Assembly (NCBI RefSeq): GCF_900112895.1
Contig: NZ_FONL01000016.1
Location: 1 to 40,297, forward strand
DNA: 40,297 bases
Direction of reading: 5' to 3'
Origin: Succiniclasticum ruminis DSM 9236
GTDB lineage: Bacteria > Bacillota > Negativicutes > Acidaminococcales > Acidaminococcaceae
The notes beneath the pieces were generated by a model. It had not been told where the DNA came from. It was given only the letters and a program-made list of their open reading frames with translations, and searched no databases. Positions 30,899 through 40,297 of this stretch are shown piece after piece; the first letter of the stretch is position 1, and every line of letters begins with the position of its first letter. Position numbers and translations under genes: made by a program.

Positions 30899-30938
30899 AT
30901 TATAACAAAACAGCCGCAGAAAATAAATCCCACGGCTG
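30899..30938 (-). repeat. Dispersed hairpin repeat, copy 1 (CAGCCG/CGGCTG with TTTTGTTATAAT)
   Basis: Reading the minus strand, CGGCTG arms are followed by TTTTGTTATAAT. The same unit occurs at 31441 and 37627. The hairpin plus T-rich tail acts like a terminator, and the TATAAT could double as a -10 for the gene at 30875. This copy has the least perfect stem. Confidence 0.7.
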
Positions 30939-31440: not shown

Positions 31441-31478
31441 ATTTATAACAAAACAGCCGCAGAAAAATCTGTGGCTGT
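31441..31478 (-). repeat. Dispersed hairpin repeat, copy 2; terminator of the esterase-fold gene
   Basis: ACAGCC...GGCTGT with CAG/CTG inside is followed on the minus strand by TTTTGTTATAAAT. It lies 53 bp after the stop at 31531. Confidence 0.75.
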
Positions 31479-37612: not shown

Positions 37613-37626
37613 TCCGTTTTCCTTAA

Positions 37627-37662
37627 TTATAACAAAACAGCCGCGGAAAAATCCACGGCTGT
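37627..37662 (-). repeat. Dispersed hairpin repeat, copy 3; terminator of the RiPP-type operon
   Basis: ACAGCCG...CGGCTGT with GG/CC inside is followed on the minus strand by TTTTGTTATAATTAAGG. It lies 35 bp after the precursor stop at 37698, and its TATAAT is 13 bp before the GTG of the micro-protein, so it may both end one operon and start the next. Confidence 0.75.
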
Positions 37663-37697
37663 TGAGTCATTTACTGTGCAAAATTGGAGTTTTTCGA

Positions 37698-37931
37698 TTA
37701 TTCTATCCGTTTCGGCCGTTGGGCATCATACGGACCGGTGCCACCGGCAATAGCCTGCAGCTTTTCCCCGTCCAGATCGTAATCGGCCAGCTCCGCCATG
37801 TACGCTTCCGCTTCCTCTTTGGTTATCTCATAGCCGCCGGCCTTCGCCAGCGCTATCAGTTCGTCGGCAGTTTTGCACTGCATGGCCTTCATGATTTGTG
37901 CTTTTGTGAGTTCTTTTTTGTTGATCGGTAT
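37698..37931 (-). CDS. RiPP precursor with Nif11-like leader and double-glycine site (ATA start)
   Basis: Read from the codon aligned with its paralogue's ATG, this is 77 residues: a helical leader (KKELTKAQIMKAMQCKTADE onward), ELADYDLDGEKLQAIAGG ending at Gly64, and a 13-residue core TGPYDAQRPKRIE. The pattern D-L-D/x-E-x-L-x-A-I-A-GG is that of Nif11/double-glycine leaders, cleaved by C39-type peptidase-transporters. The first codon is ATA, eight bases after a perfect GGGAGGG ribosome site. The first ATG (37892) has no ribosome site and would remove 13 leader residues. It follows the radical SAM gene by 27 bp. Confidence 0.78.
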   Translation of the reverse strand: MPINKKELTKAQIMKAMQCKTADELIALAKAGGYEITKEEAEAYMAELADYDLDGEKLQAIAGGTGPYDAQRPKRIE

Positions 37932-37958
37932 AGCAGAATCCCTCCCAAATTCAATTAT

Positions 37959-39593
37959 TTATTTTTCCGCTTCCGCCGGTTCCGGTAAAAAGGCGGTCGC
38001 TTTTACGATATCAAATATTTCCTTCTGGCTGGTTGTTGACATAATCGTCTCCCGTTCCGCATTTGTAAACCGCGAGGCAGGTCCGGCCAGGGACAGTGTC
38101 AGTTCACCTGCGCAGGCATCCATGCATGCTTCCCCCGCGGCAGCGGCGGCACAACGTTTTTCCCATTCCCGACCGGCCACACGGGACGCAACGAAAGCAA
38201 AAATTTCCCTGACCTCGCCGCAGAACTCCCGGAAGTAGTCGCCATGCGCGTTGCTGGAGCGGGAAGCGCAGCCACCCCGGCAGATCAGGGCGTGCGGGCA
38301 GGTCTGGCAGGCTTTCATCAAATCCACGGTGCGGGTACGCCACTTTGCCTTATTGAAATTCCATAAGAACCGGCTCATACCGGGCTGGACGTAACCCGTC
38401 ACCTGGTCGTCTTTCCCTACGACGTCCCAGCAGGTATAGATTTTCCCGAAGGGGTCCACCACCAGCATTCCCGTCTCGGCACCGCAATACGCCGGGGAGA
38501 AATCCGGATAACTTTCCTTTTTGAAGAGATTGTTCATCCGGTACCAGATCATGTCGTACTGGCTCTGGCGGGCAACCGCCTCCTCCGCCGTGAAGCCGAT
38601 CTTCATCATTTCGTCAATGGTATCCTGCTCGCTGATATTCTTTTCGGGATGCGCGTCATCGGTGGTCGCCTTAAAGTAATAGCTGAACACGCCCCGCTTC
38701 GTCTTCGCTTTGAGATCGGTTTTCCTGAGTTCCGCCTCTTCTTTGGCCCGTTCTTCTTCTTTCGCGATAAAGCCCCGGGCCTTCAGGTCATCGACCAGGT
38801 CCTTAATCCCGTGCAGGTTCTCTTTGCCCACGTTCACCCGCAGACGCACCGTCACGCCCCGCTGCAGCGCCAGTTCCACATTGCGGAGGATGCGGTCGTA
38901 GGTGGGCAGGCCGTTCTTGTGGAGACGCCGGCGGTCATTCAGCTCCGCCGTGCCGTCCACCGTCACCTGTATGCTTCCCAGCTTGTATTCCTCCATGAAG
39001 TCCAGATACGCTTCCAGATCGTACCCGTTGGTGACGGCGCCCATGAACAGCCCCATTTCCCTGCATTTGCCGGCAATCTTTTTTACCACGCCGATGTTCT
39101 TTGCCAGGAAAGGTTCCCCGCCATAGAACGTGCAGCCGTTCACCACATAACCCCGCGCTTTGTAGTCCTTCAGCGCGGCGAAAACGGCCTCTATCATCTC
39201 ATCGCTCATGGTGTTATCGAGCCAGTCCTGCCCTTTCTTCAGCCGGTGCTGTTCAAAGCAGTACGGGCAGCGGAAGTTGCAGTCGTAGGTGGGCATGATG
39301 ACCAGCCCTACACCCATGCGGCCCTGAACGTTCTTGTAGATGCGTGAAAAAAGTTTCAGGTCCGCCAGTTCGCCCGCTTCGTCTTTGCGGGTAATGTGTC
39401 CGCGCAGCATAAGCCGTTCCCGCAACGCGGCGGACAATCCGGCAAAATTTCCTGCCTGCAGCCTGTCCGCGTCTTCCTTCGGCACTACGTCCATGGCGCC
39501 GTACAGGCCGTTCACCAGCAGCGCGTATCCCTCAATCGGTTTTTCATCCGCACCGACCAGCGGCAGGATGATTTCATAGGTGCTTAGTCTCAT
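37959..39593 (-). CDS. Radical SAM/SPASM peptide maturase
   Basis: This 544-residue enzyme has C105-x3-C109-x2-C112, which binds the SAM [4Fe-4S] cluster, with YGGEPF at 157-162. A C-terminal SPASM region has cysteines at 370, 388, 429, 432, 438, 442 and 458 for auxiliary clusters (CGAETG..., CWD, CQTCPHALICRGGC). The first 95 residues resemble the N-terminal leader-binding region of peptide-modifying SPASM enzymes. A lysine/glutamate-rich insert is at 276-300. Such enzymes install C-C, C-S or C-O crosslinks or epimerise residues in RiPP cores. It lies between two precursor-like genes; its ATG is 3 bases after the stop of the first and in the same frame. Confidence 0.93.
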   Translation of the reverse strand: MRLSTYEIILPLVGADEKPIEGYALLVNGLYGAMDVVPKEDADRLQAGNFAGLSAALRERLMLRGHITRKDEAGELADLKLFSRIYKNVQGRMGVGLVIMPTYDCNFRCPYCFEQHRLKKGQDWLDNTMSDEMIEAVFAALKDYKARGYVVNGCTFYGGEPFLAKNIGVVKKIAGKCREMGLFMGAVTNGYDLEAYLDFMEEYKLGSIQVTVDGTAELNDRRRLHKNGLPTYDRILRNVELALQRGVTVRLRVNVGKENLHGIKDLVDDLKARGFIAKEEERAKEEAELRKTDLKAKTKRGVFSYYFKATTDDAHPEKNISEQDTIDEMMKIGFTAEEAVARQSQYDMIWYRMNNLFKKESYPDFSPAYCGAETGMLVVDPFGKIYTCWDVVGKDDQVTGYVQPGMSRFLWNFNKAKWRTRTVDLMKACQTCPHALICRGGCASRSSNAHGDYFREFCGEVREIFAFVASRVAGREWEKRCAAAAAGEACMDACAGELTLSLAGPASRFTNAERETIMSTTSQKEIFDIVKATAFLPEPAEAEK

Positions 39594-39596
39594 GAT

Positions 39597-39776
39597 TCAC
39601 ATCTTCCTTTGCTGACCAGAGGCCGAAGCCGCCAGTTCCGCCATATACGATTCGGCTTCTTCTCTGGTAATCGTAAAGCCCCCGGCTTTCGCCATTTCCA
39701 TCAGTTCCTCCGGTGTTTTGCACTGCATGGCTTTTACAACCATTTCTTTTGTAAGATCTTTTTTGTAGATCGGCAT
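39597..39776 (-). CDS. Nif11-like leader peptide without core (59 aa)
   Basis: The residues MPIYKKDLTKEMVVKAMQCK begin a sequence paralogous to the peptide at 37698: both have the KAMQCKT-x-(E/D)EL helix, AKAGG-(F/Y)-x-ITxEEAExYMAELA. It then ends in SASGQQRKM, with no double glycine and no core. GGGGAGGG precedes its ATG. The stop TGA is followed by ATC and then the maturase ATG, all in one frame. It may be a precursor that lost its core, a leader acting in trans on the enzyme, or an upstream regulator of maturase translation. Confidence 0.75.
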   Translation of the reverse strand: MPIYKKDLTKEMVVKAMQCKTPEELMEMAKAGGFTITREEAESYMAELAASASGQQRKM

Positions 39777-40051: not shown

Positions 40052-40297
40052 CTACTTGCTACCCTTAAAAGGGTCTTCGTATTCTTTACTGAATAACGAA
40101 TCTTCCATTTGATCCATCTTATCCTGTTCCCGGATATATTTCTGTATGGTTTGCGCATTCAGCCCTACCGTACTAACGTAATATCCGGTTGCCCAGAATT
40201 TTCGATTTCCAAATTTATATTTCAGATTCGCATGTCGTTCAAATATCATCAGTGAACTTTTTCCCTTTAGATACCCCATGATATAGGAAACACTCAT
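39950..40297 (-). mobile_element. IS200-type insertion sequence, transposase-stop end
   Basis: After the transposase stop come a hairpin GCCAGCG/CGCTGGC (39999-40021), an AGCCC/GGGC(C) pair, and a hairpin with 8-bp arms CCACCCCT and AGGGGTGG and a 3-nt loop (39950-39968). That last hairpin has the same size and CCACC start as the one at the left-edge element (243-261). It is probably the right-end recognition hairpin. The rest of the element lies outside the window. Confidence 0.65.
40052..40297 (-). CDS. tnpA: IS200/IS605-family transposase TnpA, C-terminal part (cut by window edge)
   Basis: The 81 visible residues (YIMGYLKGKSSLMIFERHAN, GNRKFWATGYYVSTVGLNAQTIQKYIREQ, EYEDPFKGSK) are the standard C-terminal half of IS200 TnpA. 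It includes the helix with the catalytic tyrosine, probably in the GYYVSTVG-to-KYI region. No stop or frameshift is seen in this part. It has the same orientation as the transposase at the left edge. Confidence 0.92.
   Translation of the reverse strand: MSVSYIMGYLKGKSSLMIFERHANLKYKFGNRKFWATGYYVSTVGLNAQTIQKYIREQDKMDQMEDSLFSKEYEDPFKGSK

Follow-up and report, generated by a model that had tools for sequence, protein, structure and literature searches.

The DNA analysed here (hereafter the window, 40,297 nt) is one entire contig of the Succiniclasticum ruminis DSM 9236 genome, whose assembly comprises 39 contigs and is 98% complete. In the order of transcription, its minus strand encodes a 59-aa Nif11-like peptide (pepU), a radical SAM/SPASM enzyme of 544 aa, and another Nif11-like peptide, this one having a double glycine and a core (pepD). 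The three frames of the first-pass annotation (39597-39776, 37959-39593 and 37698-37892) were all recovered on this strand, and its reading of the region as a RiPP-type locus was borne out, the SPASM enzyme having peptide maturases as its best family matches and lying between two Nif11-like peptides. This is a real, somewhat unusual RiPP locus, with the following features:

39597..39776, minus strand: pepU, leader-only Nif11 peptide of 59 aa (open frame, profile matches, alignment with relative G012)
39629..39642, minus strand: breakpoint zone of the pepU truncation (matches to the G012 precursor gene and to G006 DNA just upstream of the maturase gene)
37959..39593, minus strand: radical SAM/SPASM enzyme of 544 aa (profile matches, invariant Cys, predicted fold)
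37698..37931, minus strand: pepD, Nif11 precursor gene, with 77 codons and a stop when ATA is taken as the start (alignment with relatives)
37701..37739, minus strand: pepD core TGPYDAQRPKRIE after the double glycine (TxPYDAQ kept in G013, G225 and G239; in-frame remnant in G006)
37626..37663, minus strand: terminator-like hairpin and T-run containing a repeated 19-mer (19-mer search of the genome)
40052-40297, upstream of the locus: IS200/IS605 transposase interrupted by the contig end, C-terminal part (profile matches)

With up to 2 mismatches allowed, the terminator-like 19-mer occurs 36 times genome-wide (0 for the reversed control), and it follows 9 of the 22 Nif11 matches of the genome within 250 b on the same strand. 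It is also found at 30899-30916 and 31442-31459 of the window.

The open frame of the enzyme evolves under purifying selection (dN/dS 0.18-0.32 against five relatives). Its radical SAM motif CxxxCxxC (C105/C109/C112) and seven SPASM cysteines (370, 388, 429, 432, 438, 442 and 458) are invariant in 26 sequences, and a SPASM domain model exceeds its own cut-off in a profile search. The best NCBIfam matches are peptide maturases, none of which reaches its cut-off among the best 25 of 73 models (best 134.9 of 525 bits), be they thioether maturases (TIGR04463 134.9/525, NF038107 134.3/600, TIGR04334 133.5/600, NF047865 98.8/340 and TIGR03974 68.2/425 bits), the nif11-like peptide radical SAM maturase TIGR04064 (69.6 of 518.7 bits), or triceptide/cyclophane maturases (YhhB 62 of 445 and AmcB 46.6 of 425 bits). 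Within these best 25 of 73 models the enzyme group has no curated model of its own and, as all stay under cut-off, the family does not fix the chemistry of the enzyme.

The closest solved fold to the predicted enzyme model (mean pLDDT 90.5, pTM 0.87) is that of the thioether maturase CteB (5wgg; Z 22.1, rmsd 3.7, 393 residues, aligned range 4-476), followed by the sulfatase-maturating enzyme anSME (Z 20.8), ChlB (20.5) and then TigE (19.2); CteB is also the top solved relative by sequence. Residues 1-90 of the model form three strands and three helices, in what is predicted to be an RRE-like fold, and among the best fold matches only CteB (from residue 4) and TigE align from the first residues onward. 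A SPASM enzyme with a non-peptide substrate was considered and rejected: anSME, PqqE, MoaA and viperin all occur in the fold list, yet CteB comes first, although its lead over anSME is small.

The upstream peptide exceeds the cut-off of the Pfam Nif11 profile (PF07862; 24.3 bits, cut-off 23.8), stays under that of NCBIfam TIGR03798 (25.7 bits, cut-off 32.3), and has neither double glycine nor core. Its counterpart in G012 is full-length, the same leader being followed by a double glycine and the core YCWHHCDGYSCEWDYEYI. Window positions 39780-39629 align to the 5' part of this precursor (L141:8389-8540, 146 of 152 aligned nt identical), the match ending at 39629, and positions 39642-39560 align to L142:1803-1886, that is, to G006 DNA just upstream of the enzyme gene. 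Because the window switches its match in this way, the pepU tail ASASGQQRKM is mostly enzyme 5' region, and pepU is a 3'-truncated precursor gene, broken mid-leader, whose core was presumably lost by deletion or rearrangement. In G012 the peptide is separated from the enzyme by a 672-aa ORF interpreted as a sensor kinase.

The collected loci comprise 45 distinct enzyme starts, some of them distant (for instance L069, L070 and L075), with less than 600 b of upstream sequence available for L205, L051, L054, L062 and L056. Within 600 b upstream of these starts, an open leader-only frame of comparable length is present in the window alone, the other 44 being preceded by full precursors, broken pieces or none. 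Short broken leader pieces lie upstream of the enzyme in L054, L066, L197 and L209; in L206 the leader has lost an internal segment and the core is retained. Across 174 distinct Nif11 stretches, 12 are 3'-truncated (that of the window counted), 4 are truncated on both sides, and 17 are 5'-truncated, an appearance that frames cut by a locus edge can also take.

These data bear on the proposal of the first-pass annotation that pepU is a leader-only paralogue acting in trans. As a conserved partner it was rejected on the full-length G012 copy and the survey of enzyme starts (up to 600 b upstream), the peptide being a truncated precursor that the other enzyme loci surveyed lack. A functional docking or folding partner is, more generally, very improbable: the ATG, the ribosome-binding site and the open leader are all kept, and the 4 synonymous and 1 nonsynonymous changes relative to the G012 copy are too few to exclude selection, but the origin of the tail, the full-length version in G012, the isolated position of the window among the 45 starts (up to 600 b upstream), and the frequency of 3'-truncated leaders (12/174) all weigh against it.

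The downstream peptide scores 26.7 bits against Pfam Nif11 (cut-off 23.8), and 33.0 bits against TIGR03798 (cut-off 32.3), or 31.6, just below, in a whole-genome search. It is, as described earlier, the only one of the two with a double glycine and a core devoid of Cys, Ser and Met, which was confirmed on TGPYDAQRPKRIE, where Thr is present. For the 64-aa ORF at 37698-37892 the frame was correct but the start was not: in the nearest relative, G013 (L144), the same gene starts with ATG at the codon that reads ATA in the window (37931-37929), so that the ORF, which opens on the first in-frame ATG (37892), begins at an internal Met, the gene start being placed by alignment at 37931. Over the 63 leader codons that follow the start, the G013 copy shows 2 differences from that of the window, and it ends with the core TDPYDAQRPKRIE. 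In the window, translation of pepD may begin at ATA or at an internal codon, or the peptide may not be produced at all; an error in the assembly is possible too. A frame error concealing a Cys core was rejected, as the two other frames of the core contain no Cys and all 4 differences from G006 are synonymous in the annotated frame.

TxPYDAQ cores occur in the window, in G013 (on a contig other than that of its enzyme pieces), in G225 (TGPYDAQQDGKK; the genome of L049, a Selenomonadaceae bin), where its gene comes directly after that of an enzyme with 77% identity, in G239 (TGPYDAQRDGKK), within an array of six precursors, and, with its leader broken, as a remnant in G006. From one genus to another, 18-20 of the 63 leader residues change (about 30%), as against 0-1 of the 7 residues of TxPYDAQ, with 1-3 synonymous nucleotide changes. 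Window and G225 are separated by 30 nonsynonymous and 13 synonymous nucleotide differences in the leader versus 0 and 3 in the core, and the core of the window differs from the G006 remnant by 0 nonsynonymous and 4 synonymous changes. That the core is better conserved than the leader speaks for a function, albeit from few sequences. The search for homologous loci and the alignment of their cores, both suggested in the first-pass annotation, thus reveal a Cys-free core that three genera have retained through synonymous changes.

In a search confined to 380 genomes of the class, the pattern GPYDAQ gave 10 matches versus 5 for the reversed control pattern, 6 of them in short or unrelated frames and 4 of Nif11 type (G000, G006, G225 and G239); the TDPYDAQ variant of G013, missed by this pattern, was found by a separate search. 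A CYPDC/CCPDC-type core shares the locus or array of TxPYDAQ in G006, G225 and G239 (G000 and G013 were read only in part for such cores), both peptides being intact in G239 only: the TxPYDAQ copy is broken in G006, and the CCPDC copy has a TAA in its leader in G225. Since G239 has the TxPYDAQ peptide but only another enzyme type, the core is not tied to the window-type enzyme. A Nif11-like peptide of Synergistaceae (L063:3835-4053), near a related enzyme, has the Cys-free end APGEPQYDIKKEK, whose echo of PYDAQ..K may be due to chance.

The 22 Nif11 matches of the genome are spread over 10 contigs. The regions that contain them encode 20 other full-length precursors whose leaders are similar and whose cores all have one or more Cys, and truncated Nif11 copies are present as well. 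A second enzyme copy (55% identity) has as neighbours a Nif11 precursor, a radical SAM C-methyltransferase (TIGR03975) and genes for NHLP export, among which the C39 exporter TIGR03796 and the HlyD-type protein TIGR03794 are over cut-off, and the TIGR03797 protein, a partial sequence, is under it. The absence of a peptidase-transporter from the window was confirmed (no C39 peptidase match there), and the search for a C39 transporter elsewhere in the genome returned a single match, on another contig, namely the C39 peptidase of this second locus. The genome also has a separate SCIFF maturase. At L035:11897-12874, in the same genome, a Nif11 start is fused in frame to an ORF read as alpha/beta-hydrolase-like.

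Enzyme and precursors tend to occur together. In 14 genomes of the genus, 8 of the 9 with at least 5 Nif11 matches have the enzyme (matches with E up to 1e-20), and 0 of the 5 with 0-1 do (one-sided hypergeometric p about 0.003, calculated by hand with relatedness ignored), the match in G011 being a C-terminal piece at a contig end. A renewed search for the enzyme in G002 and G010 again returned none. Close leaders occur in 27 of the 380 genomes of the class, and 15 of 20 close-leader genomes (17 outside the genus plus G002, G010 and G011) have an enzyme match. Open enzyme genes with no Nif11 match within 600 b on their own strand are found in G003 (two copies) and G001. The named relatives belong to Selenomonadaceae, Lachnospiraceae, Spirochaetia and Synergistaceae, and the titles of many mention rumen (also as RUG), reticulum or omasum. 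Most genomes compared are draft assemblies. Many relatives come from metagenome bins, to which an individual contig may have been assigned wrongly; no MAG label is attached to Lachnospiraceae bacterium AC3007 or Selenomonas ruminantium S137.

Of the 139 distinct cores collected (length up to 40 aa, from closed frames of the collected loci, which is not a genome census), 127 contain Cys, the 12 Cys-free ones being four of the TxPYDAQ family, one one-residue end, a pair of similar spirochaete cores, and five singletons. The Cys cores include 97 non-redundant ones; 55 of these contain C[YW] (mean of the shuffles 18.8), 41 CxxxC (16.1) and 30 CxxD (16.4), values reached by 0 of 1000 shuffles in each case, whereas CxxxD, the spacing of PapB substrates, is not enriched (12 versus 15.1). 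Orthologues of the window enzyme with 93-96% identity adjoin Cys-containing Nif11 precursors. Hence the earlier exclusion of a thioether product holds for the TGPYDAQ core alone, and not for the enzyme, in view of these orthologues and of the 20 Cys-core precursors in the genome; to judge from sequence and fold, its likeliest activity is the formation of thioethers on cores that contain Cys and are provided in trans. The central oddity of the locus, a conserved Cys-free core, stands; the leader-only partner and the excluded thioether do not hold for the system.

Taken together, these observations are probably best explained by a genome-dispersed multi-precursor RiPP system, with one enzyme type and many Nif11 precursors, mostly with Cys cores, and a conserved Cys-free member. 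The enzyme would bind the similar Nif11 leaders through its predicted RRE-like N-terminal fold and modify the cores of many precursors encoded across the genome, most likely by forming radical S-C crosslinks (sactipeptide/ranthipeptide-type) at C[YW]xx.C motifs, and the single NHLP/C39 transporter of the second locus would cleave after the double glycine and export the products. Both local precursors appear damaged in the genome of the window (core lost in pepU, ATA for ATG in pepD) and the enzyme is under purifying selection, from which we infer that it probably works mainly in trans. The TxPYDAQ peptide would be a Cys-free member of the same precursor set, sharing leader and exporter, and may be exported unmodified or with a non-thioether modification (e.g. 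Tyr/Asp chemistry). Some points run against this reading: G002 has 10 Nif11 matches and no enzyme match, in a genome 75% complete; no maturase model among the best 25 of 73 reaches its cut-off; anSME comes close to CteB in fold (Z 20.8 versus 22.1); CxxxD shows no enrichment; and in G239 the TxPYDAQ peptide occurs with only the other enzyme type.

How far the TxPYDAQ peptide follows the other precursors is a matter on which the readings diverge. It could well be, with a probability somewhat below even, an unmodified linear peptide (a signal, or a partner of CYPDC) that borrows the Nif11 leader for processing at the double glycine and export: the core is short and polar, without Cys or Ser, a GG site and an NHLP/C39 exporter are at hand, and CYPDC/CCPDC-type cores share its locus or array in three genomes, but no receptor or dedicated exporter was noticed beside its gene, and both peptides are intact in only one of the three (G239). 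The view of the first-pass annotation, in which the enzyme carries out non-thioether chemistry on this core (Tyr cyclophane, Tyr-Asp bond or epimerisation), is rather unlikely, even though the core is Cys-free and kept across genera through synonymous changes, the peptide is the first gene after the enzyme in both the window and G225, and some SPASM enzymes are described as forming C-C bonds and cyclophanes (PMC11002830). Cyclophane-maturase models fall far under cut-off (YhhB 62 of 445 bits), Cys is found in 127/139 distinct cores, and the G239 and G013 copies of the peptide are not located beside an enzyme of the window type. The TxPYDAQ motif is, moreover, presumably unlike known cyclophane motifs. 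Less likely still is a decaying, non-functional locus, which the truncated pepU, a pepD without ATG and the broken TxPYDAQ copy of G006 would suggest, and against which stand the open enzyme frame under purifying selection and the 20 other full-length precursors that remain in the genome.

Among known systems, the closest to this dispersed set of precursors are the prochlorosins (ProcM with Nif11-type ProcA), described as having Nif11 leaders, many diverse cores per genome and precursors far from the enzyme (PMC7268733, PMC10783134). The window system likewise has Nif11 leaders, diverse cores and enzyme-distant precursors, its Nif11 matches lying on 10 contigs and co-occurring in the genus with the enzyme, which would act on these precursors; in contrast to prochlorosins, the enzyme is a radical SAM/SPASM protein and not a LanM, the hosts are largely rumen bacteria, and the cores are rich in C[YW] and CxxxC. 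With CteB/SCIFF and other ranthipeptide-sactipeptide maturases the enzyme shares Cys cores and the order of N-terminal domain, radical SAM and SPASM, but it has 19-24% identity to them, is about 90 residues longer and misses the NCBIfam cut-offs (best 25 of 73 models), and the system has many unrelated cores, unlike the one conserved SCIFF peptide. The second locus resembles NHLP/Nif11 bacteriocin secretion (TIGR03794/03796/03797), whereas the window locus has no exporter. Triceptide maturases act on aromatic residues of Cys-free cores. They are SPASM enzymes, as is that of the window, but their models stay under cut-off and the window core has the motif P-Y-D-A-Q; triceptide (3-residue cyclophane) maturases are described as forming cyclophanes (PMC11002830).

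A partial literature search returned no paper title or abstract opening on such a Nif11/radical SAM system. Should the enzyme have the promiscuity that its leaders point to, it would make peptide libraries by natural radical-SAM chemistry and be a useful tool, and the dispersed-precursor strategy of picocyanobacterial lanthipeptides would also exist in the rumen, with unrelated chemistry. A full radical-SAM counterpart of the prochlorosins, with 1-2 SPASM enzymes, up to about 30 dispersed precursors, several rumen phyla, and a non-thioether reaction on TxPYDAQ, is a doubtful extension of this idea, for which the Cys-free TxPYDAQ core offers a clean test of an enzyme switching from sulfur to another acceptor.

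In Spirochaetia and Selenomonadaceae, Nif11-type leaders with a Cys core fused to a Hint (hedgehog/intein-type) domain adjoin related enzymes (L055:1923-2705, L056:2955-3719, L058:5037-5699 and L208:117-809). Hint_2 is over the Pfam cut-off in 4/4 and Pfam Nif11 in 2/4 of these fusions, which are possibly self-cleaving RiPP precursors; no paper on Nif11 with a Hint domain came up in the partial literature search. Some cores are almost identical between genera or phyla, as in L015/L059 (CYPDC..DYCFEN), L038/L024/L068 (CW.NCP...C.HHVCGTVGWENFKGC) and L054/L066 (IFECYMRHNCGYIGDDWK).
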